Shown here in pieces: positions 15,784 through 64,000 of a DNA stretch of 64,000 bases. How positions within the stretch are numbered: position 1 is the first letter of the stretch; every line of letters begins with the position of its first letter. The notes below the pieces were generated by a model. That model was not told the origin of the DNA. It saw nothing but the letters and a program-made list of their open reading frames with translations, and did not search any database. A program made the translations under genes and the position numbers. This stretch comes from Bacteroidaceae bacterium. Its GTDB lineage: Bacteria > Bacteroidota > Bacteroidia > Bacteroidales > Bacteroidaceae. The stretch spans positions 62,001-126,000 of the forward strand of contig JAFTAJ010000014.1 of assembly GCA_017458585.1 (NCBI GenBank). Direction: 5' to 3'.

Positions 15784-15845
15784 ACTATCTACCTCTACCT
15801 ACCTCTATCTACCTCTATCTACCTCTATCTACTTTTATCTACCTT
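15784..15845. repeat. CTATCTACCT spacer array (10-bp period)
   Basis: About six degenerate decamers. The reverse complement of this family (AGGTAGATAG, AGGTAGAAGT) fills spacers at 23512-23664, 29358-29432 and 37232-37268. Confidence 0.88.
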
Positions 15846-23113: not shown

Positions 23114-23512
23114 ATGAAACGTACATTATTATCTCTGCTTCTGCTGTGTGTATGCTTCGCCCCGATGATGGCTGAGGAGCCCCAGGCAGAAATCAAGTTT
23201 GACAAGATCTTGCACGACTTCGGTCAGTTTACCGAGGATAACGCTCAGGTGAGCTGCACCTTTACGTTCACCAATGTGGGCGATGCTCCGCTGGTGATCA
23301 CTCAGTGCGTGGCTTCGTGCGGCTGCACGGTGCCCACTTACTCCGACAAGCCTATTGAGCCGGGCAAGACTGGTCAGATTAAGGTGACTTACAACGGCAA
23401 GGGCCGCGTGTTTGGTCCCTTCACCAAGGTCATCACGGTGATGAGTAACGCGAAGACGAAGATGACGCGACTCAGCATCAAGGGTGAGATGGTTGAGAAG
23501 GAGAAGAAGTAG
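23114..23512 (+). CDS. Exported DUF1573 domain protein
   Basis: 132 residues. The signal peptide is about 1-20 (MKRTLLSLLLLCVCFAPMMA). A single DUF1573 Ig-like domain follows, with FDKILHDFGQF, CTFTFTNVGDAPLVI and ASCGCTVPTYS. The paired cysteines in the SCGC motif are characteristic. Such proteins are abundant in Bacteroidota and are probably periplasmic or surface beta-sandwich modules of unknown binding role. It ends in EKEKK directly before a long decamer array. Confidence 0.9.
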   Translation: MKRTLLSLLLLCVCFAPMMAEEPQAEIKFDKILHDFGQFTEDNAQVSCTFTFTNVGDAPLVITQCVASCGCTVPTYSDKPIEPGKTGQIKVTYNGKGRVFGPFTKVITVMSNAKTKMTRLSIKGEMVEKEKK

Positions 23513-23664
23513 GTAGAAGGAGGTAGAAGTAGATAGAAGTAGGTAGAAGTAGGTAGAGGTAGGTAGAAGTAGGTAGAGGTAGGTAGAGGTAGGTAGAGGT
23601 AGGTAGAAGGAGATAGAAGTAGGTAGAGGTAGGTAGAAGTAGGTAGAAGTAGGTAAAGGTAGAA
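23512..23664. repeat. Long (GTAGGTAGAA)n array
   Basis: About fifteen degenerate decamers (AGGTAGAAGT, AGGTAGAGGT, AGATAGAAGT), the longest short-period array in the window. It fills the gap between the DUF1573 gene and the guanylyltransferase gene completely. Confidence 0.93.
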
Positions 23665-28482: not shown

Positions 28483-29358
28483 ATGAAACTGAAAGGACGA
28501 CGCGAAAGCACCAATGTGGACGACCGCCGTGGCTTGACCGGCATGCAGAAGGCCGGCCTTGGCGGATTAGGTGGTATAATAGTAGCTGTGGTTATGATGC
28601 TGCTCAGCGGCGGCGACCTCAGCAGTATTATCTCTTCGGTGGATCTTGGCAGCCTCACCAGTGGGGCGCAGGAGACCAATACTAATCCGCGCGAATTCAC
28701 CGCTGAGGAGCAGGAGCTGGCCAAGTTCTCTAAGCAAATACTGGCGGGCACCGAGGATGTGTGGGCCGAACAGTTCAAAAAACTCGGCAAGACCTACACT
28801 CCGCCCAAGATGGTGCTCTACACCGGCAGCGTGCAGACTCGCTGCGGCAACGGCATGTCGAGCATGGGTCCGTTCTATTGCTCTGGCGACCAGTGTCTGT
28901 ATATCGACCTCTCGTTCTTCAGCTCAATGAAGAAGCAACTGGGGGCTGACGGCGATTTCGCTTACGCCTACGTCATCGCCCATGAGGTGGGCCACCATGT
29001 AGAGTATCTGCTCGGCACCCTTGGCAAGGCTCACGAGCAGATGTCGAAGGTTAGTAAGACCGATGCCAACCGTATCAGCGTGCGACTGGAACTGCTCGCT
29101 GACTTCTATGCCGGCGTGTGGGCCCACCATGATAATAAGATGTTTGCCTCGCTGGAGGATGGCGACCTTGAGGAAGCCATCCGTTGTGCGCAGGTTATTG
29201 GCGACAACTATCTGCAGGAGAAGGCGCAGGGCTACTCGCAGCCTGAGACCTTTACCCACGGCACCTCAGCCCAGCGCATGAAGTGGCTCAAGCTCGGCTT
29301 CACCACCGGTGACGTAAGGCGCGGCAACACCTTCCAGCTGAGCGACAGCGAGCTGTAG
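28483..29358 (+). CDS. YpfJ-type neutral zinc metallopeptidase
   Basis: 291 residues. A short cytosolic N-terminus rich in charged residues (MKLKGRRESTNVDDRRG, a family hallmark) is followed by one membrane span (about residues 27-47), then the peptidase domain with the zinc motif HEVGHHVEYL and the downstream EL...ADFYAGVWAHH region. The family (PF04228) is annotated as putative neutral zinc metallopeptidase, and its physiological substrate is unknown. It should sit in the inner membrane with its catalytic domain outside. The stop codon runs straight into a decamer repeat. Confidence 0.9.
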   Translation: MKLKGRRESTNVDDRRGLTGMQKAGLGGLGGIIVAVVMMLLSGGDLSSIISSVDLGSLTSGAQETNTNPREFTAEEQELAKFSKQILAGTEDVWAEQFKKLGKTYTPPKMVLYTGSVQTRCGNGMSSMGPFYCSGDQCLYIDLSFFSSMKKQLGADGDFAYAYVIAHEVGHHVEYLLGTLGKAHEQMSKVSKTDANRISVRLELLADFYAGVWAHHDNKMFASLEDGDLEEAIRCAQVIGDNYLQEKAQGYSQPETFTHGTSAQRMKWLKLGFTTGDVRRGNTFQLSDSEL

Positions 29359-29432
29359 GTAGAAGTAGGTAGAAGTAGGTAGAAGTAGGTAGAGGTAGAT
29401 AGAGGTAGATAGAGGTCGATAAAGGTAGATAA
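29358..29432. repeat. (AGGTAGAAGT)n spacer array
   Basis: Seven to eight decamers of the family seen at 23512-23664, filling the gap to the flavodoxin gene. Confidence 0.9.
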
Positions 29433-37231: not shown

Positions 37232-37268
37232 AAGGGAGATAGAGGTAGATAGAGGTAGATAGAAGTAG
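37232..37268. repeat. (AGGTAGATAG)n array between convergent genes
   Basis: Three to four decamers (AGATAGAGGT) of the 23512-23664 family, in the gap between the NigD-like and LuxR-type genes. No stem-loop terminator was found here. Confidence 0.85.
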
Positions 37269-37270
37269 AA

Positions 37271-43234: not shown

Positions 43235-46200
43235 CTATTGATTCTTAATCACTTTTCCGTCTTGGATAAAGATACCCTTTGGCGATTTGTTATTAAGTTT
43301 GCGGCCTTGCAAATCGTAACATTGACCATTGACCATTGAGGATTGAGAATTGACTTCTTGTACGGCAGTCGGTTCGTCGCTAAACTCAAGGTTGAGCATG
43401 CCGGTCGGTGCGTCGTCTCCAAATTGTAGGTAGGCACTGTTTTCGGGTATATTGCCTGAGGTGACCTTGGTGAAACGTCCTCCGCCAAGAGTGTTGAGGG
43501 CGTAGATGGTACCCTTGAGTCCGTTGCGGGCAAAGTAGGTGCCCTTGAGCATATTGTCGGCTATTGGCCTGCCGGAGGGTGCAGCTATCTGGAGTGTGAG
43601 CTGCTGGCTGTCTTCGCCGCGGATGATGGCGGGAGTACCGGCTGGCAGACGGTCATAGACACGCAGGAAGCACAGCTTGTTGCCGTCGAGGTGGTCGGCC
43701 ACATATACCTGCAGGTCTTCGGGCACGATGATATCGAAGGCGTAGTTGATGGTTTTCATTCCCGCGGAGTTGAGGGTGACATTGATATTATCTACGAGCT
43801 GCAACTGGAACTGTGAGTTGGTGTTGCCGTAGTAGGCCGTGGTGTTGTTGTAGAGTGCAGAGAGAGCCATTCCGCCCTGCTGCGTGGTGGAGATGGAGAA
43901 TACGCCGGGCTTGTCTTCTGTGACATAGTAGCGCCCTGCCTGCTTAGTGCCGCGGCGTGCATGATTGACAGTGTTGCCGGCATTGTCGGGGAGGCGTCCG
44001 AGGCTTACATCCTGGCTGGTGGGGCTGAGTGCCTCGCCATTGGTGGGGAAGCCCCATATCTGTGCCACGTTGTTGGCGGTGAGCGCTTTGTATTGCGTTG
44101 ATGGCTGGTCGGTGGCAGTGAGGATGGGCGTGGAGCTCTGATTGCTGGCCATTGACTGTATGCGATAGACATAGGTAGTGGGGTCGAAGGGTATGCGGTT
44201 GCATCCGTCAACAGCTTTGTAGAGCTCGCTGCGCTGGTCGATAGAGATGCTGCCATTGTTGTATAGCTGGGTGAGGTAGTCGCGCTCTTCGCCCTGGGGG
44301 ACAGAGCCCACCAATCCCTCGGACACCTTGAGGATGTCGCGCAGCCGAGCTACATAGGTGTCAAACTTGGCATAATCAACACATTTATTAATAATGTACT
44401 TAGCCTCGGCATCGGTGGGAGTGAGGTAGTAGTTGTCATAGAGGTCGAAGTAGCTGGCCTCGTTGCCGATAGAGAGAGCCTTGACGGGCTGGTCGGCATC
44501 GGCGGGGTCGAGGGTGATGTATTTACCGCGACTGGTGATGAGGAACGATGACTGACGGTACATATAGTCGATGCTTACCTCGGCGGGAGTCTCGCTGAGA
44601 CAGTTCTGGGCATCGGCATCCACATAGCGGCGTATGCCTGGATTGTAGAGGTAGTATTTGTCGTAGCCTTCAGCCTTGATAATCATCCAGTTGTTGCGGA
44701 GGTTGGTGACATCCACATTCTTCTTGTACTCATCAATAGCACCGTTTGTGGTTGCCTGTCCGACGCTAAGGTGGTTGTCGGCGTCGGCAACGAGCTTGCC
44801 GTAGCCGTAGTGGCTGCTGAGCTGGTAGCGGTGGGTGGTTATGATGGCGTTTTTGTTGATGGCGTGTCCGAACTTAAGTAGTGAGCTGGTATTGTTGAGG
44901 TCAGTGATTGCTTGTGCTATCTCATCGATGTCACCCTGCCCGTTGTTGTATACACGGCGCAGTGCGGGTAGATCGCGAATGGGGTAGGAGTTGAAGCATC
45001 CTGCGTTGTCGAGCAGCTCGGCAGCGTATTGGTATATCTTGTTGGAGCTGAGGTCAGTGGCCAATGTCAGTTCGTTGATGTAGAGCATCACGCCGTGGCC
45101 CTCGGTGAACTCTATCTTGAAGTACTGCGAGTTGATGCGCTGGGGCAGTTGTGTGGTGGTTGTAGCAGCGCGTGCGATGAGCAGCGTGTCGGTGGCTTGT
45201 GTCCATGTGTTGCCGTCCTCAGAGGTAAAGATGACAGCCTTTGCGGGCCAATAGAGATAGGACTTCTTGTCAATAGTCAGGCTCATCTCGCTGATGCTCA
45301 CCCTGGTGGGAGCCTTCAGGGCAATCCAATGAGGATAGAGCATGCCGCCGTTTTTCCACTTATTGCGCCAATAGCTCTTGGGGTCGCCGTCGATAGCCTG
45401 CGAGGCACGGCCGTAGTCGCCATCGCCCTCCTCTTCCTGGTCGGAGAATCCGAGAAGGGTCCATTTGGTCAGGTCGTATGTCTCGCCAGTTGATTTGAGG
45501 CGAGCCTGAGCTTGGCGGGCGGCATCTTTCTTTATGGCCTCGTTGACGCGAGCTACTTTGGCGTCAATGTTTATAGTGTCAACGCATGAGTGGTCGAGAG
45601 GTACGCCTACATAGTGTGAGGAGTCGTTGACGGTAGAGGTGTATCCGCCATGCTCCATATAATATGCATTGGGAGTGGCATCGGTGGCTCCTCTACCGAA
45701 GTCGTGGCGCGAGGTGCGAGCCGAGCCGCCGTCGTTGTTGGTGAAGCTGTAGCCGGAGATGCTATACCACTTGCCGCTACCGGCGGAGCGCAGAAAGCCC
45801 TTTCGCCAATAGGCACGGGTGTATATCTCGCCGCAATCGCCATAGTTCTCGAGGAAGGAATAGAAGGTGGAGAAGAGGTATGACTTGCCGGAGGCGCGGT
45901 GGGTGGCCAGATAGGTCCAGTCGGGGTCGCTGGCCATCTTGTACCATGCCGTGACGATGCTGTTCTCATAGACAAAGGTAGAGTCCTTGCCGTTGGCATC
46001 CTTTACGACAACGTTGACCTGCTCGGGTCTGGTGTTGAAGAGGAACTGCACCCACTGGTCGGGCTTCCACCATTGTCCGTGGTGATACATGGCCTGAATG
46101 CCGGTCTTCTCTCCGCCAAAGCGTGCGATGGTAATGTTGGGATCGTGGTCAAGGTTGCCAGAGCGCATATATTCGGGCAGGTTGGGATCGCTGTCCACGT

Positions 46201-46936
46201 CGCCGTTATCCCACATGGAGAAGATGACCTTATAGTTTTTCTCAGCGTTATAATCGCCGTCGTACTGTATGCCCATATATCCGCCCATCACGCCCATCGA
46301 CTCAACGTAGGTAGCGACACGCAGGTACTGTGAGGGGTACATCACCTCCTGGTACGACCAGTCGTAGCTCTCTCCGCTTGGTGCCATGGGGTCAACGGGC
46401 TTGTAGTTCCACAGATGTGTGGAGGCAGCCATGAAGCGGTTGGAGGTCACGATTTGCTGGGTTGACTCGCGCTTGAACTCCAATTTGTTGATGGCTGCAA
46501 CGCTGGAGGGCTTGCTGGAGGTAAACTCAAAGCGATACCATTTGTCTTCAGGGAACTGCACGTCTTTTATCATCTCCAGTTCAGCATTGGAATTGCTGCC
46601 GGTGGATGCTACCTCATTCTCAAAGATAAGGGCGTGGGTGTCGGGGTCAGTGACTCTGAGTCGTATCGGGGCCGCCGTCTTGGTATTGACAAACGCTGTC
46701 ATAGAAATATATCCCTCAGGCACATGCAGATAGTAGCATACCTGTGCATCGCTGCGTGATGGCCAAGAGTAAGAGCCAGTGCCGTTTTTGTCGCCAGTGG
46801 TATAGTGCTTGCCGTTAACTTCTACAAAGCAGCGCTGGCCGTAGATTACATCTGTCGTTGACTGATAGTTCTGCGATAAGGCCGACGCTGCGGTGAACAG
46901 TGCGGCCACGATGGTGGAGATATTTCTGATATTCAT
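43235..46936 (-). CDS. Large secreted multidomain protein with DUF5077, DUF3472 and discoidin-like domains
   Basis: 1233 residues from the start at 46936 (signal MNIRNISTIVAALFTAASA). A start 59 codons upstream would bury the signal and overlap the DUF4468 gene. Likely domains are DUF5077-like (about 25-150), DUF3472 (about 165-420, with YMGIQYDGDYNAEKNYKVIF and WYSISGYSFTNNDGG), an F5/8 type C-like carbohydrate-binding domain (about 490-640), then repeats of unknown type. The tail CYDLQGRKLNNKSPKGIFI resembles C-terminal segments common on Prevotella exported proteins. Just before it, VNSQSSMVNGQ is encoded by ATTGA heptamers (43319-43353). Probably a surface glycan-binding or degrading protein. 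Activity unknown. Confidence 0.8.
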   Translation of the reverse strand: MNIRNISTIVAALFTAASALSQNYQSTTDVIYGQRCFVEVNGKHYTTGDKNGTGSYSWPSRSDAQVCYYLHVPEGYISMTAFVNTKTAAPIRLRVTDPDTHALIFENEVASTGSNSNAELEMIKDVQFPEDKWYRFEFTSSKPSSVAAINKLEFKRESTQQIVTSNRFMAASTHLWNYKPVDPMAPSGESYDWSYQEVMYPSQYLRVATYVESMGVMGGYMGIQYDGDYNAEKNYKVIFSMWDNGDVDSDPNLPEYMRSGNLDHDPNITIARFGGEKTGIQAMYHHGQWWKPDQWVQFLFNTRPEQVNVVVKDANGKDSTFVYENSIVTAWYKMASDPDWTYLATHRASGKSYLFSTFYSFLENYGDCGEIYTRAYWRKGFLRSAGSGKWYSISGYSFTNNDGGSARTSRHDFGRGATDATPNAYYMEHGGYTSTVNDSSHYVGVPLDHSCVDTINIDAKVARVNEAIKKDAARQAQARLKSTGETYDLTKWTLLGFSDQEEEGDGDYGRASQAIDGDPKSYWRNKWKNGGMLYPHWIALKAPTRVSISEMSLTIDKKSYLYWPAKAVIFTSEDGNTWTQATDTLLIARAATTTTQLPQRINSQYFKIEFTEGHGVMLYINELTLATDLSSNKIYQYAAELLDNAGCFNSYPIRDLPALRRVYNNGQGDIDEIAQAITDLNNTSSLLKFGHAINKNAIITTHRYQLSSHYGYGKLVADADNHLSVGQATTNGAIDEYKKNVDVTNLRNNWMIIKAEGYDKYYLYNPGIRRYVDADAQNCLSETPAEVSIDYMYRQSSFLITSRGKYITLDPADADQPVKALSIGNEASYFDLYDNYYLTPTDAEAKYIINKCVDYAKFDTYVARLRDILKVSEGLVGSVPQGEERDYLTQLYNNGSISIDQRSELYKAVDGCNRIPFDPTTYVYRIQSMASNQSSTPILTATDQPSTQYKALTANNVAQIWGFPTNGEALSPTSQDVSLGRLPDNAGNTVNHARRGTKQAGRYYVTEDKPGVFSISTTQQGGMALSALYNNTTAYYGNTNSQFQLQLVDNINVTLNSAGMKTINYAFDIIVPEDLQVYVADHLDGNKLCFLRVYDRLPAGTPAIIRGEDSQQLTLQIAAPSGRPIADNMLKGTYFARNGLKGTIYALNTLGGGRFTKVTSGNIPENSAYLQFGDDAPTGMLNLEFSDEPTAVQEVNSQSSMVNGQCYDLQGRKLNNKSPKGIFIQDGKVIKNQ
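43319..43353. repeat. ATTGA heptamer array inside a coding region
   Basis: Five tandem 7-bp units: ACATTGA, CCATTGA, CCATTGA, GGATTGA, GAATTGA. On the minus strand they encode VNSQSSMVNGQ just before the C-terminal tail. Confidence 0.88.
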
Positions 46937-51236: not shown

Positions 51237-51320
51237 GTCAGCTTTAAATCTCACGAAGTCAGCTTTAAATTCTACGAAGTCAGCGTTAGTTGCAGACGAA
51301 GTCAGCGTTAAATTTCGTGC
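51237..51320. repeat. 21-bp tandem repeat array overlapping the DUF5106 stop
   Basis: Units start at 51237, 51258, 51279 and 51301 (periods 21, 21, 22), each beginning GTCAGC and containing TTTAAAT-like and ACGAA parts. Same family as 22793-22931. The last unit runs into the final codons of the DUF5106 gene. Confidence 0.85.
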
Positions 51321-52154: not shown

Positions 52155-53387
52155 TTAAGGGTTTAAGGTTTTCGCCCACTCGGTAAGCAGCCATGTCTCG
52201 TTGAAGTCGCCGTATGGGCAGAGAGTAGCGTTGTCGGTGTATTTTTGCTGTGGCACAAACATTGAAACGGCGCAGAAGTCGTCGGCCAGGTAGAAGAAAC
52301 CGTCGCCCACTTCGCTGCTAGCATAGAAGGTCGGGGTGCCAGCTTTATAGACGATGCACTTGTCGAGCTGCTCGCGCCAGATGGCGGCATCGTCAGCGGG
52401 TAGTATGGCGCTCATGGCTGCAGCTGCGTCGAAGAAATCGGGGCGGTAGAATGTACGGTAGGTGTAGGCGTTGTAGGCTTGGACGTTGTCCATGGACCAT
52501 TGACCATTGACCATTGACAACTGGATATTATTCTTTTCGAGCAGCTGTTGGGTGAGGTTGGCGAGGCTGTCCAGCCCGGAGGTCTTTACTGCGGAGACGA
52601 CGATGCCGAGGGAGTAGGATGATGATACCCTGTCTATAACATCTGTATAATAGGTACGCGCGATGTCGGCTGGGTCGTCAGCAAAGAGTCCGTCGGTGAG
52701 CTGGTGAGTGTAGTATGCCCCGTCGGCTGTGGTGCTGATGGGTGCGCCAATGATGTAGTCGGCAGTGTGGCGCAGGGCATAGTCCACCTCAATGCACTGC
52801 ATGAGACATGCGTCGAAGAAGATGTATCGGAACTTCATGCCGCTGTTGCGCAGCACGGTGGCCAGATCTTCTATAGCCATCGAGGTGCCCCTGTCAAGGT
52901 CAAAGACATCGCCATCGTCTATGCCGAACGACTTGAGCCATTTGCGGCTTGCCGCACTCTGATAGTTGGTGTTGAGCGGCTGCAGCCATCCGTCGGCATG
53001 CGACCATAGCGTTAGTCCGTAGTCCAAGGCGGGGTAGTTCTCCTTCACCCATGCGAGCAGCCATGCCATCGTGGCGGGGTCTGACGAGTCGAGGTTGCTC
53101 TCCATAGTCATGGTGGGAGTGAGGTCTGCGTGGTTGCGGTCGAAGACGTATATCTCTGTGCCTTCTTTGCGGTCGAGATATACCACTACTGTCTCGCCCC
53201 GTTTCAGTGATGGTGCACCGGCGGCTATCTCGCTCAAGTCGCGCATAACATAGCTTCTCAGGCTGTTCTGTGCAGAGAAGTATATGATGGCGGTCTTCTG
53301 CTTGACGAGGTCATCGGGCGATATGCCGCTGTCGGAGCATGACACCAGCATCGTAGCGAGGAATAGTATTGAGATAATCTTTTTCAT
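52155..53387 (-). CDS. Clostripain family (C11) cysteine peptidase lipoprotein
   Basis: 410 residues. Lipoprotein signal with lipobox MLVSC, then SDSG. The C11 caspase-like fold has the catalytic His in LWSHADGW and Cys in YIFFDACLMQ. C11 peptidases cleave after Arg or Lys and are often autoprocessed. Near residue 297 the sequence LSMVNGQWSMDN is encoded by CCATTGA heptamers (52490-52517), probably a surface loop insertion. It follows the giant repeat-protein gene in the same direction but has its own promoter. Confidence 0.88.
   Translation of the reverse strand: MKKIISILFLATMLVSCSDSGISPDDLVKQKTAIIYFSAQNSLRSYVMRDLSEIAAGAPSLKRGETVVVYLDRKEGTEIYVFDRNHADLTPTMTMESNLDSSDPATMAWLLAWVKENYPALDYGLTLWSHADGWLQPLNTNYQSAASRKWLKSFGIDDGDVFDLDRGTSMAIEDLATVLRNSGMKFRYIFFDACLMQCIEVDYALRHTADYIIGAPISTTADGAYYTHQLTDGLFADDPADIARTYYTDVIDRVSSSYSLGIVVSAVKTSGLDSLANLTQQLLEKNNIQLSMVNGQWSMDNVQAYNAYTYRTFYRPDFFDAAAAMSAILPADDAAIWREQLDKCIVYKAGTPTFYASSEVGDGFFYLADDFCAVSMFVPQQKYTDNATLCPYGDFNETWLLTEWAKTLNP
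52490..52517. repeat. CCATTGA heptamer array inside the clostripain gene
   Basis: Four tandem 7-bp units (CCATGGA, then CCATTGA three times). They encode SMVNGQWSMDN on the minus strand. Confidence 0.9.
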
Positions 53388-53608: not shown

Positions 53609-53692
53609 CGCGTCAAAAACTGAAAAAAGCGCGTCAAAAGCTGAAATTATCGCGTCAAAAACTGAAAAAAGCGCGTCAAATCTGTGGATTCA
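53609..53692. repeat. 21-bp tandem repeat array after the giant gene
   Basis: Four units starting at 53609, 53630, 53651 and 53672, exactly 21 bp apart. Consensus CGCGTCAAAAACTGAAAAAAG. It shares period and a GTCGCG...AAAA...TG pattern with the other arrays. Confidence 0.85.
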
Positions 53693-53721: not shown

Positions 53722-56700
53722 TTAGTCATTCTTCTTGCCGATGACTACGTTGGTGTTGCCGGTTACCTCGGCCTGGTTGCCGCCACCGAAGACATTGCCA
53801 CGGATGTCAACGCCAACGACGTTCTTATCCGAATGGTTGGTATCCGACACATAGTTAATCTTTGTCAGCGTGCCGATGTTCACATTCGTGTCACCTTGCA
53901 CTTTTGCTGCATTACCGCCACCGAAGACGGTACCGATGGCACCTATCTTGCCCTTTTCGTGAGTGGGCACAGTCACGGTGGAGGTCACTAGGTTGGGATG
54001 ATCCGGGTCGTCCTTGAACTGGATGGTCCATCCCTTGAAGTTGCCGTTGGCATCAAAGTAATCGTCGGCGGTGAAGTTGCTAATGGTTGCCTTTGGGTCG
54101 TTATGCAGACCTAGCACCTCGTTCACGTTTACCGTCGGACTGCCCTTCACGACGGCCCTCGTTCCGAGTCCGCCGCCAAACACACGTCCAATGCTGGTGA
54201 ACGACTTGATATTAATGGTAGGCTGCTCGGTACCAGGTGTCTCATACGGAGCCTTGTTGCCACAACCGTAGAGCTCGCCGATGACTATTGGGTGACAGCC
54301 CGTCTCCTCGATGTTCACCGTGATGGAGCCGTGGATGGTACCGTCGATGTTGTTGCCGCCGAACACGCGCTCGAAGCGTCCGCTGGTGATGGTCAGCTCC
54401 ACGTTGCCTCCCACGTCAGCAGACTTGGCACCTGCGTAGAGAGTCTTCAAAGAGGTGATACATCCCAGCTTAATCTGCGAGCCGCCATACATCTCGGCCT
54501 CGTTACCACCGCCATAGACCTCGTTGATGACGAGCGGACAGGTGCTGGCTTCGTCAAGGTAGGCCACCGAGGCGTTGCGGATGTCGCCCTTGGTGTTCGA
54601 GCCACCGAAGACGTTGTGGATGGTACCGCCCATCACCTCGACCAAAGCTTCGCCCGTACCGTAGGTCGTCGTGCCGTCGGAGCGGTAGCCTACGTTGGCA
54701 CCCGGGTTTTCGTCCCATGCACCATTCTTGTAGATGCGGTCCTTACCGTTACCACCGCCGAAGAGGTAGTCCACCTCGTAGCAGCCCATCATGATAACAT
54801 CGGTCGATGGGGTGCAGGCAGCATTGCCGCCGCCATAGACATAGCGTATGCTGGCCTCGTCGCAGCCGTCAATGAGCACCTGCAGGGGACGATGGGTATT
54901 ACCCTCGGGGTTCTGGGTGTACTGGCCGTTGGCGTTGGTGTCCCACGGGTCGTATTCGGCCAGGTTACCGCCGCCATAGACAGCCTCCAGCTCGTAGGTG
55001 TCGGTGTCCTTGGTGGGCTTGGCGTCAACATCCTTGACGGTATAGGTGCCGTCGCCGTTGTCTGTCAGACCCCTGGTCTGAAGGACCTTCACCAGCACGG
55101 TGCCCTGTGGCGTACCGTTCAAGTTGTTGCAACCGAACACACGTCCGGAGGCAGGAATGTCGTTTTGCTGATCGTCCTTCTTGGTGGTGGGGTAGAATGC
55201 AGTACCGTTGAGCGTGACGGTTACGTCACCCATCACCAGAGCGGCAGCGTTGGCAATCTCTTCAGCCGAAGCTCCGCTGGGAGCTATCACACCCTGTCCG
55301 CCGCCGTATGCATCGCCCAGTATGATACCACCCGTCAGGTTGACCTCTGTCTTGGCATTGCCCCTATTGGCGTCGCCACAGTCGGTGCTGGTGACAGCTG
55401 CATTTCGTATGTCGTGTACATTGGAGTTGGCAATGGCGCCTCCGCCATAGACATCCTTTGCAATCAGACCGCCTTTGATGTTGACTGTGACGTCGTGGTT
55501 AACGAGACCGGCAGTAGGTGATGCCAGTGCGCCTGCACCGCCGCCATAGACGTTGCCGTCAATCTTTGCAGAACCATCGATGGTAACATCAGTGTTCTTT
55601 CTGACGTGGCCGGCATTACCGCCACCGAACACATTCTCAAAGACATGGGCACTGCCCTTGACGTTGACGAGGGTGTTCTTGACGTATGCCGCCTGCTTGT
55701 ACTCCTCCTTGGTGCTGGCCACACCGCGACCAGAGCCATAGACGGAGCCGTGGACGGCTGTCGTCGTGCCATCGATGACAACTCGGGTCAGACCGCTGGA
55801 GTAGGGGAACGGGTTGTTTGTAGTAGGATCGTCAGTGACATTCTTCTTGCTGTCGGCAGCCGTCTCGTCCGCTTCGCCTACCGAAGCTAAGGAGCCGCCG
55901 CCATATACATCGCGCCAGATGGTGCCGCCGGTGATGTTGACTGTGGTATTGCCGCGCACCTTACCGGCCGTCTCACTGATTTGCGCATGCGGATGATCGA
56001 CACCGCGTCCCGAGCCATATACATTGCCGATATATATGGTTGTGGTGTCCGCACGGCTGTACTGTGTCGGGTCACTGCCAATCTGACCGCCGCTGATGTT
56101 GATACGGGAATCCTGCCATAAGTGACCGTTCTCGCCCGAGCCGAAGACGCAGCCGAATATCTGGGTGTTGTCGCCGCTGATATTGGTTATGGTGGAGTGG
56201 GCATAACCCATCTGGCGGTACTGGATGTCAACCTGCTGGCCGCTTTCTACATATGTATCTGCCACCATACCGCAGCTGGAGCCGAACACGAAGCCGTTGT
56301 TGTCGCCCGGCACGAGGTATCCTGAGCCGAGGGCCGAGCCGTCGGTATTGACATTGCCCACGTAGCCGCCGGTGATAGTGATGGTGGCATTGCCGCCAGT
56401 GGCCTCATCCTCAATCATATCGACGATGTGCATGTCGTCATCCTTGTTCAAGCGGTACATACCGACGGAGGCCAACAGTCCGCCGCCGTAGATGGAACGG
56501 CGCACCACGCCGCCCGTCATCGTCACGTTGGTATGGCCATAGACACGGCCTGCCGACGAGCTTCGTTGCTCAGAAGTGCCGTGGTGAACGGGATCGACAC
56601 CACGTCCGCCGCCGAAGACATTGCCGCGGTAGGGGTTCTTGGTCGAACCGTCTTTTTCAGTTCTGTACACCTTGCCGTCAGACTCCTCCACGAGCGGCCA

Positions 56701-59700
56701 TCCGATGATGCCGCTATGAATCTTGACATCGGTGTCGGTCTTCACGTGACCGTTCTCACCGCCACCGAACACGGCACCATAGATATAAGGTGCATCAGTG
56801 CCAGCAGTGTAACTTGTCTGATTTTCTGTTCCGATGGTGACGAAGGTCTTGTTGACGTACTCCATGCTGGCGATATAGTCGCTTCGATTGGCCGACACAC
56901 CACGTCCGGCACCATATACGCGTCCGTTGTTGCGGCCTTCCTGACCTGAGGTGGTGTCACCGACAGTACCTCCGAGAATGCTCACCTTCACCGTGCCGGT
57001 GCCGTCCTTGAATACACCTGTCAGGTAGTTGATATCACTCTCGTCGGGATTATAGACGACATCGTTGACCAAGGTGCCGTTATTATCCACCACCTCATCG
57101 TGTACATGAGTGCCGGCAGGCTTAGCCTCAACCGTACCCACCGATGCCATAGCACCCGAGCCATAGACATTGTGCCATACATGGCCGCCAGTCATTTTCA
57201 GCTCAGCATTGCCATAGACGGCACCAGCCGACAGACTGTATCGGGCTTCTGTAGTGCCGCCACTCGATGTATAATATTGATCCACACCGCGTCCGCCTGC
57301 ATAGGCGTTGCCGCGGAACACAGGCTTCACGGCTACACCGTGGTCGTCGAAGCCCACTTCGTCGTCGAGAAGTGGCGTGCCGATGGAGCCGCCGCTGATT
57401 TCCACGTAGGTGTCGTTCTTCACGTGACCGTTGGCACCGCCACCGAAGACAGAGCCCTTGATGTCGGCTCCGTTTTCGATATATACTTTGGCATTATGCA
57501 CGTAGGCCATCTTGATAAGGTCGCTACTGGGTGCTGCCGACAGTCCGCGGCAGCCGCCATAGACGAAACCGCAGTTGAAGCCCTGCTTGGAAGCATTCTC
57601 ATCGGAAGTGTAGCCGATGATGCCGCCCTTGATGTGTACTTCAGCCAGGCCGGAGTCGTCGGGATAGGTGACCTCACCATTGGTGTCGATGACTTCCTGA
57701 CCGACGGAAGCCAGCGAGCCACCGCCAAAGATGTCGTGATAGACCTTACCACCGCTCACCTCAAGGAAGGTGTTGCCATAGACGCGTCCTGCGGTCAGCG
57801 AGAGGTTGCCGTCATCGCCAATGTCAATGCCTCGACCGCCGCCATAGACATTACCGCGGTAGAGGAGTCGGCCACGTCCGTTGTCGTCAATCACGTGCTC
57901 GGCATCGATCAACTCTGTACCGACAGTACCTCCTTTGACATAAACCCCAGTATTTACGCGCACGTGACCGTTCTCACCGCCACCGAAGACGGAGCCGGTG
58001 ACATTGGCTGTGCCCTCAATGTTGACGAGGGTGTTATTGGTGTAGGCCAATTGCACGATGGTGGAGTTGCCCACTGCGCCAGCAGCCATACCACGACCGG
58101 AGCCGAACACGAAGCCGTTTTCACGGCGGTTCTCACGGTCGGGGATGTTGGTCGAGTAGTTGTTAGCGGCCGCACCACCGTCGGTACCAATCTGTCCACC
58201 CTTGATGGTGACTGTGGCCAGACCGGTGAGGTAAGAGCCGTTTGACTGAGGAGTCTCATCGCGATTGCCGACACTGGCTAACGAGCCGCCGCCATAGACA
58301 TTACGATAGATGGTGCCGCCTTCAATGGTAACATTGGTGTTGCCAGCCACCTTGCCTGCGGTGATGCTGTAGTCGCCGCCTGAGGTCGGGTCAATACCAC
58401 GACCGCCACCATAGACGTTACCGCGATATATCATGTTATCGACGAGGTTCGCATCTGTCACATTGTCCAGCTGGATACCTACTGTGCCACTCTTAATCTT
58501 GACATCCGTGTCGTTATATACATGGCCGTTCTCACCGCCACCGAAGATGCATCCATAGACGGTGCCGCCATTGAGGGTGACATCAGAGTTATTCACAAAC
58601 GAATAGCCGGAATAGGTAGTACCTGCCTTACCGAGGCAGCCGCCGAAGACGAGGCCGTGGGTGTCGCTGAGGTCGTTCTGACCGATGGTGCCGCCAGTGA
58701 TGCTGATAGTAGCAAGACCAGTACCGTCTTCGTCCAATCCAGACACATCACCTTCAGCCAATTGGCCGGTGGCTGTTGTGGCGTAGGTGTAGGAGCCTAC
58801 CGATGCGAGCTCGCCACCGCCATAGACGTTGCCGTAGATGGTGGTGGGCTTGCTGTTGTCAGCCTGCGAGATGTTCACGGTGGTGTTCTTCACCAGACCG
58901 AGCTTCTGACTCTTGGCCCAGTCGTTCATCAGCGCACCCTTACTGCCACCAAAGACGTCGCCCACGCTGAATGAGTGACTGGCCATCGCTGCCTGGGTAC
59001 CTATGGTACCACCCGTGATATTGATAGTGACATTACCATGGTCGGTGCCAGTCTGCATCGCTCCGTAGTTGTCGCTTCCTGTACCTGTGGCAGGTGCCAG
59101 ATGGGTACCTACAGCAGCCATACGTCCGCCACCATAGACGGAGCCGAGAATCTTGGCATTCTCGCTGATATTAACCTCGATGTTACCGCAGATAACGCCT
59201 GCCGTGAGTGCCAGAGCCGAGAAACCACGGCCACCACCGAAGATGTTTCCGTCAACGCCCGAGGTACCGAAGGTACCTATGAGGGCATTGCCCTTGACGG
59301 TGGTTTTGGCATCGCCCAGCACGTGGCCGTCCTCACCTCCACCGAAGATGGAGCCGAAGATGACGGCATTCTCGTCGATGAAGACTTCTGCCTCACCTAC
59401 GTTGGCCCAGTTATAGAACATAGGACGCGGGTCGCCCATACCGGCACCGAAGATATAGCTGTTGACAGGACGTGCCTGGATGTCGGCCACCGAACGGGGC
59501 ACACCAACGGTACCGCCCGTCATCTTCACCGTACTCTTGCCAATCACATCAGTAATCTCATTACCGCCATAGACATTGGTCAAGATGTGTCCTCCGCTGA
59601 TTTCAACTGTAGTGTTACCCAGCACACGTCCGGCAGAACGACGCCACTTGCCGGCAGCAAACGGGTAGTAGCCTGAGCCGCCTCCGAAGACATGACCATA

Positions 59701-62700
59701 GTAGCTATGGCCGTCGCTACCGGGCTTGGCACCGCCCTGTGCGTCATATCCTGACGTGCCGGCATAGTAGTCATAGACATGGCGGTCGCCTTCAGGTCCG
59801 TAGGGCCATGCGTCGCACTGGTGGAAGCCGGCGGCATCGGCATCGGTGAAGGTGCCGGCCTTGATCTTATTTATGGCTGTAGTCCACTGTGTTTCAGTAT
59901 AGACAGGATCCCAGTGGTCAACATTGCTGCCGTCTTTATAGTGTCCGGAACCAATCTGGCCGCCTTTTATCTCTACTTTGGTATCGCCCAGCACCTGTCC
60001 GTTCTCTGAGCCGCCATAGGCAGAGGCAGCAACCAGTCCGCCAGTGATCTCCAAATGGGAAGAACCGGAAACGGCAAGCAGGTGTGCCTTATTGTATGTA
60101 AGGGAGTCGGCCACACCCTTGCCGGCGCAGAATACATAGCCATAGTCATCGTCGGAAGTTGGGTTGGCAGGATTAGGCATCAGCTGTCGGACAAGACCCA
60201 CCTGTCCGCCGCTGATCAGCACCTCAGTCTTGCCAGTGCCGTCCTTGACGGTCTTGGGCTCACCTACTGCATGGTAGGGATGCGATACCTCTGACGTATA
60301 TGTTTCGGTGAAGGTTCCCACTGAGCTCAGCTCGCCACCGCCGTAGATACTGCGGCAGATTTTACCTCCGGCCATGTTGACCTGGGTGTTGCCAGTGACG
60401 ATGGCTGCATTGGGGTTAGTTGCAACGCCCTTACCGGCACCATAGACAGTTCCGGAAATGAAAGCTCCGACAACCGTCTCTGTCGTGCCGGTTGATGTCA
60501 GGTTGATGCTCTGATTGACCTTGGTACCTACATTAACGGTCGTGTTACCATATACGGCAGCCTCGTTACCGCCGCCATAGACATCAACCAACACTCCCAG
60601 ATTATTGGGGTTGTCAGCGGAATTAAGACCCAGTGCTGTCATCTTGGCCGGAACGCCAACGGTAGAGTTGTTAGCAAACGTACCCTGAATCATGTTGATG
60701 TTCACAGTCGGGTTGGCATACATCGCAGCACCTTCACCCAGACCGCCACCAAACACCTTGCCGATGTACGTGCAGGAGATAACATTCAGGACGGGTTCGT
60801 TATAAGGAGCATCGTGATTGCCGGTGACTGCGGTATGCGTGTCGTCGGCAGATGTTCTGGGAGAATACTTGGTCCTGCCATCAGCAAGCGTGCCATCTGC
60901 ATAGTAGCCGTATCGTGAGTAGGCGGCTTCGTTACCGCCGAGGTAGAGTTCATCAATAGTGATAGGTGTTTCACAACTACCCGTCTCCTCGATGTTCACC
61001 TTGATATGTCCCTTGACAATACCACCTAAGTTGTTACCGCCAAACACCTTACCGTAGTTACCGCTGGTGATGGTCAGCTCAATATCACCGTCGACGTTGG
61101 CATTGTCGGCACCGGCAAACAGCAGAGGAATCTTGGCAGCAGGCTTACAGCCAAGCGTCATGATGACGTCGCCGTCGATATCAGCATTCTTACCGGCACC
61201 CACCATCTTGCCTAAGTCGAGTGTACATGAACCGCCGTCTTCTGCGTCTATATTTGCAGTACCGACAATCGTACCCTTCTGGTTGCTGCCGCCGTAGGCC
61301 TCATGAATCGTACCACCATAAATAAGTGTAGTGGCTATACCTGTACCATAGTTGGTTCCACCCTTTACACCCACGTCGGCACCCGGGTTGGTGTTCCATG
61401 TCGTACCGCCGTCCAGCGTGAACTGGTCTTTACCATTACCACCGCCGAATGAGTAGCCAATCTCGTAGCTTCCGAGTATCAGTACATCAGTCGATGGGGT
61501 AGGAGCAGCGTTACCGCCGCCATAGACGTATGCAATACTTGCCTCGTCGCAACCGTCGATGATTACCTGCAGCGGCTTCTTGGTATTATCATGCCCACCA
61601 GTGGTGTATTGACCGTTAGCGTTAGGATCAGCAGGATCGTAAGCTGCCAGGTTACCACCTCCATAGACGGCATTCATCTCGTAGTTGTAGGTAGTGATGG
61701 CGCCACTGGCATCATGCGCGCTCTTGGCGTGAGCACCGCCATCGGCACGAGCCGTCTTGTTCACCAGCACGAGCACCGTGCTCTTTGGCGAACCATTCAG
61801 GTTGTTGCAACCGAAGATGCGGCCTGATGTCACCACTGCCTGATTGTGATTGTCATTAATCGTAGCCGTGACAAAGGCTACGCCGTTCTGCGTCACCGTC
61901 ACGTTACCGTAAACGTTAGCAGCCACTGCCGAGACACCGCTTGATGCTTGACGTCCTAGACCGCCACCGTAGGCATCGCCATAGATGGTGCCCTTGTTCA
62001 GGTTCACGTGAGTATGCTTGGTGGCATCAGCGCTCGTTCCATTCACGCTTCCCAGAGCTGAGCCGCCATATACATCGCCGTAGATAGTAGCGCCGCCCGT
62101 CGTCTGTCCGGAAGTACCGATATTCACCTCCACATTACCGCTGGTTCCCGTGGCCTCACCGAAGCCGCCACCGAAGATACCGTCCGCCTTTGTAGTGCTC
62201 GAACCGACCGTACCGCCCGTTATGTTGACTACGATATTGCCATCCACTGTGCCGCTGGTGTTACAGCCGCCGTAGATACCACCCAGTACTTCGCCGCCAG
62301 ACATGGTTACATCGCCACCGCCTACACCAGCCTCATTGCCGCCGCCATAGACATTGTGGCTTACCGTACCATTGATAATATTGACATCGGGCGTTCCGCT
62401 ATAAGCGGCCAGATTACCGCCACCGAAGACGTTGCCAACGTACCAACCGCAGGTCTGAGCATTCTTATTGATGTTTACCTCTATGTCGCCATAAATGGTT
62501 CCGCTGGTATTGTTGCCACCAAATACGTTGGCCACCATACCGCTGTTAATATTAAGGACGATATTTGAAGGCTGTGAGGATGTACCGATATTGGCCTCGT
62601 TGGCTCCGCCATAGACGGTACCGATACCTTCAAGGGTAGTACCGATGTTTTCGGGATGAGCGGCATGACCATTATCTCCAGCAACAATAGCGCCGGTACA

Positions 62701-64000
62701 TCCAACGCTAATGCTTGTGGCATTGCCGGCGGCCAGGTTGCCACCACCATATACCTCGCGAATCTTCATGTCGCATGAGTTGTCACCCTTGTTGATGGAT
62801 AGAGTGTTGTTGGTGCCGGTGATGGTACCGTTGATATTGCTGCCGGCAAAGACGCGGTCGATAGTACCACCAGTAATAGTTACGGAAGCGTTACCATTAA
62901 CGTCGGCCACTTTGTCGCTGTGATCAGTGCCAAGTGCAGCCTTGTCACCATGACCACCGCCAAACACATCGTGGACGATGGTGCCGCCATCGATGGTGAC
63001 GTTGGTACCGCTTACGTCAGCAGCATTACCGCCGCCGTAGACATATCCCACGGAGGTGTTGCACTTGTTGATGACTTTTACAACAGGAGTGCCTATAACG
63101 TCACCGGCATCGCCGCCACCATAGACATCGCCAGTGACTACTGCCACAACATTGTTGTCGTTCAGTTTTGTGGCATCGCCGATGGTCACAACGGGATTAC
63201 CCGTCACCTGACCTTTGGTGTGGTCGTTGGGGTCGCCCTTACCGCCACCATAGACGTTTTCGGTCACGGTGCCGTTGAGGATGTTGACAGCCAAAGTCTT
63301 GCCACTAGGAATGGTATATTGTGCCAAGTTACCTGCTCCGAAGACACTGCCAAGATAATTGTATCCACACTGGTCAGTTCCAGTTTTCCAATTGACATCA
63401 ACTTGTATGCCTCCGCTGATGGAGCCACTTACATTGTTACCACCGAAGACGCGGTTTATGCTACCACCAGTGATGTTAAGAGTGATATCGCCAGTGATAT
63501 TGGCTTGATTTGCCCCGCCATAGACATCACCGATACCTTCAGTGTCGCCACCTGTGCAACCGATAGTGAGACTACCGGCTTGGCTTGCAGCCATATTACC
63601 GCCGCCATACACCTCATCGATGTGCATATCGCAGGCTGTTGATGAGCCATCAGGATCAGTATCACCACTCTGCTTCTGGACAGTTACGTTGATATCACCA
63701 CTAATAGTACCTTGACTATTCGAACCTCCGAATACCTTGCCGATGGTGCCGCCGTAGATTTTTGTCACGGCATTGCCATTCACGTTGGCTGCGGTCACAG
63801 TACCGTTACCACCACCGAAGACGTTGCCAATCTTGTTACCGCCCCATATCGTAACGTCGGTGGCAGAAACAGCGGCAGCATTACCACCGCCATAAACATA
63901 TTCGATACTGTTGTCGCAGTTATGTACGGTTACCTTCGGATAGCCATTGCCGTATGTGTAGTCAGCCTGGTTACCTCCACCATAGACGGCATAGAGAGCG
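53722..64000 (-). CDS. Giant glycine-rich repeat protein, probable surface protein (5' end outside window)
   Basis: At least 3425 residues, open to the window edge. The N-terminus, and any signal peptide, is missing. The protein consists of solenoid-like units, each a short beta segment (VTINITGG, VYGNTNVVI) followed by YGGGN, FGGGN, YGGGRG or FGSGRG, spaced about 20-35 residues. The centre (about 55.6-59.4 kb) holds longer modules repeating GSVFGGGENGHV, YRGNVYGGGRGVD, VYGGGSLASVG and GFVFGSGRG. A roughly 1.3-1.4-kb block near the C-terminus is a diverged copy of one about 6.67 kb upstream. The end (VVIGKKND) lacks any recognised sorting domain. A parallel beta-helix adhesin is the best guess. 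Confidence 0.8.
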   Translation of the reverse strand, partial: ALYAVYGGGNQADYTYGNGYPKVTVHNCDNSIEYVYGGGNAAAVSATDVTIWGGNKIGNVFGGGNGTVTAANVNGNAVTKIYGGTIGKVFGGSNSQGTISGDINVTVQKQSGDTDPDGSSTACDMHIDEVYGGGNMAASQAGSLTIGCTGGDTEGIGDVYGGANQANITGDITLNITGGSINRVFGGNNVSGSISGGIQVDVNWKTGTDQCGYNYLGSVFGAGNLAQYTIPSGKTLAVNILNGTVTENVYGGGKGDPNDHTKGQVTGNPVVTIGDATKLNDNNVVAVVTGDVYGGGDAGDVIGTPVVKVINKCNTSVGYVYGGGNAADVSGTNVTIDGGTIVHDVFGGGHGDKAALGTDHSDKVADVNGNASVTITGGTIDRVFAGSNINGTITGTNNTLSINKGDNSCDMKIREVYGGGNLAAGNATSISVGCTGAIVAGDNGHAAHPENIGTTLEGIGTVYGGANEANIGTSSQPSNIVLNINSGMVANVFGGNNTSGTIYGDIEVNINKNAQTCGWYVGNVFGGGNLAAYSGTPDVNIINGTVSHNVYGGGNEAGVGGGDVTMSGGEVLGGIYGGCNTSGTVDGNIVVNITGGTVGSSTTKADGIFGGGFGEATGTSGNVEVNIGTSGQTTGGATIYGDVYGGSALGSVNGTSADATKHTHVNLNKGTIYGDAYGGGLGRQASSGVSAVAANVYGNVTVTQNGVAFVTATINDNHNQAVVTSGRIFGCNNLNGSPKSTVLVLVNKTARADGGAHAKSAHDASGAITTYNYEMNAVYGGGNLAAYDPADPNANGQYTTGGHDNTKKPLQVIIDGCDEASIAYVYGGGNAAPTPSTDVLILGSYEIGYSFGGGNGKDQFTLDGGTTWNTNPGADVGVKGGTNYGTGIATTLIYGGTIHEAYGGSNQKGTIVGTANIDAEDGGSCTLDLGKMVGAGKNADIDGDVIMTLGCKPAAKIPLLFAGADNANVDGDIELTITSGNYGKVFGGNNLGGIVKGHIKVNIEETGSCETPITIDELYLGGNEAAYSRYGYYADGTLADGRTKYSPRTSADDTHTAVTGNHDAPYNEPVLNVISCTYIGKVFGGGLGEGAAMYANPTVNINMIQGTFANNSTVGVPAKMTALGLNSADNPNNLGVLVDVYGGGNEAAVYGNTTVNVGTKVNQSINLTSTGTTETVVGAFISGTVYGAGKGVATNPNAAIVTGNTQVNMAGGKICRSIYGGGELSSVGTFTETYTSEVSHPYHAVGEPKTVKDGTGKTEVLISGGQVGLVRQLMPNPANPTSDDDYGYVFCAGKGVADSLTYNKAHLLAVSGSSHLEITGGLVAASAYGGSENGQVLGDTKVEIKGGQIGSGHYKDGSNVDHWDPVYTETQWTTAINKIKAGTFTDADAAGFHQCDAWPYGPEGDRHVYDYYAGTSGYDAQGGAKPGSDGHSYYGHVFGGGSGYYPFAAGKWRRSAGRVLGNTTVEISGGHILTNVYGGNEITDVIGKSTVKMTGGTVGVPRSVADIQARPVNSYIFGAGMGDPRPMFYNWANVGEAEVFIDENAVIFGSIFGGGEDGHVLGDAKTTVKGNALIGTFGTSGVDGNIFGGGRGFSALALTAGVICGNIEVNISENAKILGSVYGGGRMAAVGTHLAPATGTGSDNYGAMQTGTDHGNVTINITGGTIGTQAAMASHSFSVGDVFGGSKGALMNDWAKSQKLGLVKNTTVNISQADNSKPTTIYGNVYGGGELASVGSYTYATTATGQLAEGDVSGLDEDGTGLATISITGGTIGQNDLSDTHGLVFGGCLGKAGTTYSGYSFVNNSDVTLNGGTVYGCIFGGGENGHVYNDTDVKIKSGTVGIQLDNVTDANLVDNMIYRGNVYGGGRGIDPTSGGDYSITAGKVAGNTNVTIEGGTIYRNVYGGGSLASVGNRDETPQSNGSYLTGLATVTIKGGQIGTDGGAAANNYSTNIPDRENRRENGFVFGSGRGMAAGAVGNSTIVQLAYTNNTLVNIEGTANVTGSVFGGGENGHVRVNTGVYVKGGTVGTELIDAEHVIDDNGRGRLLYRGNVYGGGRGIDIGDDGNLSLTAGRVYGNTFLEVSGGKVYHDIFGGGSLASVGQEVIDTNGEVTYPDDSGLAEVHIKGGIIGYTSDENASKQGFNCGFVYGGCRGLSAAPSSDLIKMAYVHNAKVYIENGADIKGSVFGGGANGHVKNDTYVEISGGSIGTPLLDDEVGFDDHGVAVKPVFRGNAYAGGRGVDQYYTSSGGTTEARYSLSAGAVYGNAELKMTGGHVWHNVYGSGAMASVGTVEAKPAGTHVHDEVVDNNGTLVNDVVYNPDESDINYLTGVFKDGTGTVKVSILGGTVGDTTSGQEGRNNGRVYGAGRGVSANRSDYIASMEYVNKTFVTIGTENQTSYTAGTDAPYIYGAVFGGGENGHVKTDTDVKIHSGIIGWPLVEESDGKVYRTEKDGSTKNPYRGNVFGGGRGVDPVHHGTSEQRSSSAGRVYGHTNVTMTGGVVRRSIYGGGLLASVGMYRLNKDDDMHIVDMIEDEATGGNATITITGGYVGNVNTDGSALGSGYLVPGDNNGFVFGSSCGMVADTYVESGQQVDIQYRQMGYAHSTITNISGDNTQIFGCVFGSGENGHLWQDSRINISGGQIGSDPTQYSRADTTTIYIGNVYGSGRGVDHPHAQISETAGKVRGNTTVNITGGTIWRDVYGGGSLASVGEADETAADSKKNVTDDPTTNNPFPYSSGLTRVVIDGTTTAVHGSVYGSGRGVASTKEEYKQAAYVKNTLVNVKGSAHVFENVFGGGNAGHVRKNTDVTIDGSAKIDGNVYGGGAGALASPTAGLVNHDVTVNIKGGLIAKDVYGGGAIANSNVHDIRNAAVTSTDCGDANRGNAKTEVNLTGGIILGDAYGGGQGVIAPSGASAEEIANAAALVMGDVTVTLNGTAFYPTTKKDDQQNDIPASGRVFGCNNLNGTPQGTVLVKVLQTRGLTDNGDGTYTVKDVDAKPTKDTDTYELEAVYGGGNLAEYDPWDTNANGQYTQNPEGNTHRPLQVLIDGCDEASIRYVYGGGNAACTPSTDVIMMGCYEVDYLFGGGNGKDRIYKNGAWDENPGANVGYRSDGTTTYGTGEALVEVMGGTIHNVFGGSNTKGDIRNASVAYLDEASTCPLVINEVYGGGNEAEMYGGSQIKLGCITSLKTLYAGAKSADVGGNVELTITSGRFERVFGGNNIDGTIHGSITVNIEETGCHPIVIGELYGCGNKAPYETPGTEQPTINIKSFTSIGRVFGGGLGTRAVVKGSPTVNVNEVLGLHNDPKATISNFTADDYFDANGNFKGWTIQFKDDPDHPNLVTSTVTVPTHEKGKIGAIGTVFGGGNAAKVQGDTNVNIGTLTKINYVSDTNHSDKNVVGVDIRGNVFGGGNQAEVTGNTNVVIGKKND

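Follow-up and report, generated by a model that had tools for sequence, protein, structure and literature searches.

The window analysed here is a 64,000-nucleotide stretch of a Bacteroidaceae genome. On its minus strand, positions 52155–53387 carry a gene for a clostripain-family (C11) cysteine peptidase of 410 residues, with a lipoprotein-type N terminus and a PF03415 match at E 9.8e-39. The top fold match in the PDB is a Bacteroides C11 protease (6n9j, E 2e-26), and His130 and Cys194 are invariant in an alignment of 21 homologues. The protein thus shows both the fold and the His-Cys pair that define clostripain (C11) peptidases, and the conservation of the pair in 21/21 homologues suggests that the enzyme is probably active. 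Within this gene, at 52486–52518, lies a coding (TCAATGG)n array on the minus strand (TRF: period 7, 4.7 copies, score 52), a simple sequence repeat with a unit in the range of 1–11 nt and more copies than chance. Its four units at 52490–52517 read CCATGGA, CCATTGA, CCATTGA and CCATTGA on the forward strand (three CCATTGA and one CCATGGA), and TCAATGG, TCAATGG, TCAATGG and TCCATGG on the minus strand. The array occupies codons 290–300 and encodes the peptide SMVNGQWSM, within LSMVNGQWSMDN. In an AlphaFold2 model (overall pLDDT 83.8) it forms a coil loop between a helix at 269–285 and a strand at 304–306, about 100 residues past Cys194 along the sequence; residues 286–303 are without secondary structure, and the block 291–300 has a mean pLDDT of 71.

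The same heptamer occurs in a second minus-strand gene of the window, at 43235–46936. Its product, of 1233 residues from the predicted start (the frame is open to 47113), matches DUF3472 (PF11958, E 1.8e-45) and F5/8 type C (PF00754, E 1e-10) and ends in a C-terminal tail that reads YDLQGRKL...KGIFIQDGKVIK. A (TCAATGG)n coding array at 43319–43354, on the minus strand, fills codons 1195–1206 and sits in the linker immediately ahead of this tail (YDLQGRKL...KGIFIQDGKVIKNQ). Five units, two of them perfect, make up the forward strand at 43319–43353: ACATTGA, CCATTGA, CCATTGA, GGATTGA and GAATTGA. They encode SQSSMVNGQ, within NSQSSMVNGQC, near the C terminus. A paralogue at L076:14998-15097 (G000 C34) carries one array as the linker before its C-terminal tail and another within the tail (YDLHGRKVNGQSSMVNGQILIIDGQKVKK).

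A sequence-only reading of the window had noted CCATTGA-type heptamers at 52490–52517 in the peptidase gene and the same heptamer, encoding SSMVNGQ, at 43319–43353 in the 1233-residue protein; it had called the two proteins unrelated and concluded that the repeat, not the protein, had moved or expanded. Both sets of coordinates and peptides are correct, and Pfam places the hosts in unrelated families (PF03415 as against PF11958 with F5/8 type C). Both arrays are far beyond chance: the window holds six 14-mer matches with at most two mismatches where 0.54 are expected, and none of 100 shuffles reached six. Identical peptides make a weaker argument than they seem to, however. Since 7 equals 1 modulo 3, (TCAATGG)n encodes the cyclic heptapeptide SMVNGQW in all three frames, while the opposite strand, (CCATTGA)n, gives PLTIDH-stop in all three, with a stop every 21 nt. 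The SMVNGQW peptide is thus bound to appear in every gene where the open strand is tolerated. By itself the peptide match of two proteins is silent on movement, but it removes the need for a common protein domain.

The two nearest C11 orthologues, in G006 (75% identity) and G015 (72%), have a loop of identical length. The loop DNA of G015 reads TCAATTA, TCAATGG, CCAATGG and CCATTGG, and that of G006 retains only TCAATGG and GCAATGG. More distant homologues, from array-free genomes, have a shorter loop: the nearest array-free relative, G008 (60%), is a net five residues shorter, and the homologues in G002 and G017 are two residues shorter. A loop conserved in repeat-free genomes would have spoken against the earlier reading; the two genomes with the same-length loop both carry the repeat elsewhere, at 1 (G006) and 11 (G015) exact places. 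One scan of genome contigs yielded just three relatives of the C11 protein. We read the C11 loop as an old array, which would have been born before the three species split and is now decaying; a clean recent insertion is not the picture. Its peptide is most likely without function as a motif, and the loop merely tolerated.

Across the whole genome, three CCATTGA units in exact succession occur at 25 places, and 215 places lie within one mismatch of a CCATTGA dimer; the reversed control gave 0 in both searches. We took a census over 946 kb of the 2.40-Mb genome, comprising the window, a set A around known hits and a set B of 400 kb away from hits. One detector for periods 5–12 and one simple gene caller were used, so that genes are predictions, and an array was called coding when at least 80% of it lay inside a predicted gene. 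The 189 seven-mer arrays divide into 82 coding, 81 intergenic and 26 edge arrays, and 21 of the 51 eight-mer arrays are coding, so that about 40% of the sampled 7- and 8-mer arrays are coding. Periods 7 and 8 account for 103 coding arrays, compared with 5 for periods 5, 6 and 9–12 combined. The same detector found no arrays in two order-3 Markov simulated genomes. About 75 of the 735 sampled predicted genes, roughly a tenth, contain a 7- or 8-mer array (57/422 in set A and 18/313 in set B). Arrays of stop-free words have a coding to intergenic ratio of 94:63, as against 9:43 for closed words (Fisher p 7e-8); most arrays whose word has stops on both strands lie between genes.

Among the 98 placed coding arrays, 65 are internal, 15 fall in the first 35 residues (some of these in signal peptides) and 18 in the last 60. 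From sequence and family knowledge, we take the internal hosts to include MurF, HisRS, IleRS, SpoT/RelA, LigA, RuvA, AtpG, AroB, QueA, RsmE, TilS, MenA, NadE, MetH and an Mrp ATPase. The identity of MurF, which carries three arrays, was confirmed through solved relatives; in its model, arrays 1 and 3 lie largely in stretches with pLDDT below 50 and array 2 lies in a hairpin turn. The arrays stand in the open orientation, mostly internally and also in signal peptides and tail linkers, and both their word and their place are species-specific. An array in UDG (HPSPLSAH) was set aside after orthologue comparison as a conserved protein motif and not an invasion. Arrays within likely signal peptides are found at L069:2019-2049, L104:12201, L206:12845-12877 and L210:13773-13806 (e.g., MKKILFFLFILMVNGQWSMVNGQT), where the repeat would supply part of the hydrophobic core or cleavage region.

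Orthologues were collected from congeners by two joined-query searches, with one genome per species; the counts come from short stretches and describe a pattern, not a rate. At the positions of MurF arrays 1 and 3, six relatives lack any array. Array 3 is exactly 42 nt (six heptamers) longer than in G006, where the matching site reads CAATGTT CAATGGT (CAATGTTCAATGGT), and NnrD is 21 nt longer than in three relatives. The HisRS array is present in G000 and G006 and absent from G008 and G015; four of the five sites that differ between G000 and G006 are synonymous (pN/pS 0.06). In RuvA, DgkA, IleRS and the DUF3472 tail, one loop holds different words in different species; the DUF3472 orthologues have a linker with other or decayed words, or without any in G016. 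SpoT, MenA and C11 are of equal length, with the repeat partly decayed and pN/pS of 0.3 to 0.8 (SpoT 0.81). Compared with the close relative G007, array-bearing genes (82 to 88% DNA identity) show gaps of 3 to 117 nt, several of them within arrays and nearly all in frame. Net length changes are +6 residues in HisRS, +9 in IorA and +6 in IleRS, and near 0 in Mrp, LigA and NadE; such changes are often not multiples of seven codons, so growth purely by added units cannot explain everything. These alignments support local in-frame growth followed by decay at fixed length: several arrays have grown in place relative to sister species, and older ones hold their length while the DNA repeat decays.

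Three other accounts of the arrays were weighed. SMVNGQ might be a peptide motif with a function of its own that unrelated proteins gained through selection, in keeping with shared arrays that hold their peptide as the DNA changes, as in HisRS. Yet the DNA word dictates the peptide whatever the frame, other shared arrays such as that of SpoT vary more freely, and arrays at similar sites encode unrelated peptides (EELGVRS, KFESSRV, RPNDQTTK); we consider such a motif highly improbable. Still less credible is an assembly or binning artefact of this metagenome-assembled genome. The genome does consist of 47 contigs, and the assemblies of its relatives are fragmented, but arrays of 20–80 nt are below the usual read length, the reading frame is kept on both sides of them, and related arrays recur, with substitutions, at orthologous sites in separately assembled genomes. 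Arrays could also act as contingency switches: adding or losing one 7-nt unit would throw the gene out of frame and silence it. A single-unit change is a frameshift by arithmetic, and heptanucleotide tracts are already known as a class of simple repeat (PMC2651432, PMC4692102). The hosts nevertheless include the housekeeping genes MurF, HisRS, IleRS and AtpG, for which an off state would be lethal or costly; the examined alleles are in frame, and the arrays are short and many interrupted. Phase variation is therefore very unlikely.

We consider it likely that the C11 array belongs, as one of the coding members, to a population of non-triplet (7- and 8-mer) microsatellites spread through the genome, whose seeds lengthen, are filtered for frame and then decay. 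The start would be a short seed, either one or two imperfect units or a decayed array, which slipped-strand or template-switch synthesis could lengthen in steps of 7 or 8 nt. Selection would retain an allele only when its total length can be divided by three and its site tolerates a flexible peptide, and substitutions would afterwards convert the repeat to ordinary protein sequence. Several other origins were considered and rejected. Loss of mismatch repair does not account for the arrays, since MutS and MutL, the only two genes compared, are present in the array-rich genomes and in most array-poor congeners. Seeding of words by their genome frequency fails because TCAATGG is not enriched outside arrays (observed/expected 1.04 for singletons), and a search for a plasmid origin of the word returned three unrelated matches only. 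A palindromic or hairpin element was likewise dismissed at the sites examined: neither window gene has an inverted repeat of at least 14 nt within 200 nt, and folding z-scores at four array sites range from -1.25 to 1.24, indicating no hairpin.

The choice of word is harder to account for. TCAATGG arrays number 34 coding to 4 intergenic, near the 90% coding share of the genome, and this one word class makes up 34 of the 82 coding 7-mer arrays; other TCAATNN words are also dominant among coding arrays, and the core TCAAT occurs in 52/82 coding and 12/81 intergenic 7-mer arrays. While TCAATGG singletons are not enriched, decayed dimers are: they number 302, compared with 13 in the reversed control. 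The word thus persists in array form, which speaks for copying from array to array or for a strong bias in word choice. Slippage on random seeds does not explain such dominance of one heptamer without singleton enrichment. Arrays may instead serve as templates that are copied to new sites by microhomology-guided template switching or gene conversion, with TCAATGG spreading and slippage secondary. The prevalence of the word class despite its unenriched singletons, the skew of the TCAAT core towards genes and net gains that are not multiples of 21 nt all speak for such dispersal. MurF growth directly on a local seed, the lack of an inverted repeat or palindrome at the two window sites, and intergenic arrays that mostly consist of other words speak against it, and we regard it as a serious possibility that falls somewhat short of even. 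The earlier claim that the repeat moved or expanded is accordingly upheld in part. The DNA repeat did change and expand, with at least 34 coding arrays of the word counted in the census and with orthologues that show growth in place, but movement from site to site is only suggested, through the one common word, which is not enriched outside arrays.

Most intergenic arrays in the window begin at or a few bases from the stop codon of the upstream gene (11451, 14416, 14980, 18825, 21528 and 33245), each gap having its own word. Ten-mer arrays at 15785–15844, 23505–23655, 29355–29431 and 37233–37269 (CTATCTACCT, AGAAGTAGGT, GTAGATAGAG) start at gene 3' ends and remain intergenic; none of the 16 ten-mer arrays in the 946 kb is coding (one overlaps a gene edge), though some are stop-free on one strand. 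Twenty-one-mer arrays are found at 53609–53680, adjoining the end of a giant open reading frame (53722–63798 or beyond, more than 3350 residues), and at 51237–51313, near 51308. A second type of in-frame insert, PPLTPPMKGGE / PPKLGGVPEGGEG, is found repeatedly in conserved proteins and resembles a dispersed GC-rich element that contains reading frames; its hosts are MurF (L065, residues 62–75), RuvA (L063), a TrmH-like protein (L106), an RluD-like protein (L061) and MetH (L073).

Long simple sequence repeats of prokaryotes have been described (Mrazek 2007, as cited in PMC4679880), and heptamer arrays are known from Beggiatoaceae, Cyanobacteria, Xanthomonas and Bacteroidetes (PMC4679880, PMC4692102). 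The arrays described here resemble the published ones in being tandem, word-specific, genome-wide and patchy among related species. In those systems coding arrays are rare: a few TAACTGA arrays are coding, in the stop-free orientation and with one frame-invariant cyclic peptide, LSVISYQ; a Beggiatoaceae genome has 24 coding sets, mostly at ORF ends or in hypothetical proteins (PMC4679880); and 7–11% of Xanthomonas heptamers are intragenic (PMC4692102). Here about 40% of the sampled 7- and 8-mer arrays are coding, and many arrays lie inside conserved essential enzymes. Nor do they belong to the TAACTGA family, with its unit TAACTGA and its position mostly just upstream of start codons (PMC4679880), as the dominant coding words are TCAATGG and other TCAATNN. 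Tandem repeats in archaeal Borg elements also evolve rapidly, are genome-specific and give rise to new protein segments; about half of them lie in ORFs, but all ORF repeats there have units divisible by three (PMC9879509). Our coding units, by contrast, measure 7 or 8 nt, and genes hold almost none of 6, 9 or 12. Rickettsia palindromic elements (Ogata 2000, reviewed in PMC2229807) likewise place repeated DNA in frame inside unrelated conserved proteins and between genes, but they are elements of 105–146 bp with terminal inverted repeats and a long stem-loop, unlike the 7–8 bp units here, which have no palindrome or hairpin. A tree-of-life survey of intragenic repeats covers the same sequence class and finds units of 6–9 bp enriched in some prokaryotic phyla, but there it is tri- and hexanucleotide repeats that are enriched in coding regions (PMC12699852). 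A partial literature search found no paper on non-triplet arrays in many essential genes of one bacterium.

Four-unit TCAATNN arrays are present in 111 of 301 genomes of the family and in 15 of 30 genera, with 0 to more than 150 places per genome within one genus; 13 of the 19 genomes of this genus have no exact repeats. Ten of 21 seven-mer arrays are coding in G003 and 15 of 21 in G007. The array-rich genomes G204, G170, G183 and G237, from other genera, have 0, 0, 2 and 1 coding seven-mer arrays in 92, 60, 60 and 60 kb. Invasion of genes is thus at its heaviest in this genus (G000, G003, G007), and array-rich genomes outside it show little. The host is a rumen-type gut bacterium, and in-frame repeat growth also occurs in some of its relatives. 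Tentatively, and with more doubt than belief, we suggest that this lineage of gut Bacteroidales may be undergoing a genome-wide, frame-filtered invasion of protein genes by non-triplet microsatellites: an undescribed process would copy a few heptamer words between sites, where they become new loops in conserved enzymes, making repeats of a non-coding type a steady source of new protein sequence. Peptides common to unrelated proteins in this group are no evidence of homology. Published surveys expect coding repeat units divisible by three, whereas the coding arrays here are chiefly 7- and 8-mers and extend into essential enzymes. Frame-invariant arrays let new protein loops be followed from birth through fixation to decay across sister species, so that how enzymes acquire insertions becomes directly testable in living relatives.
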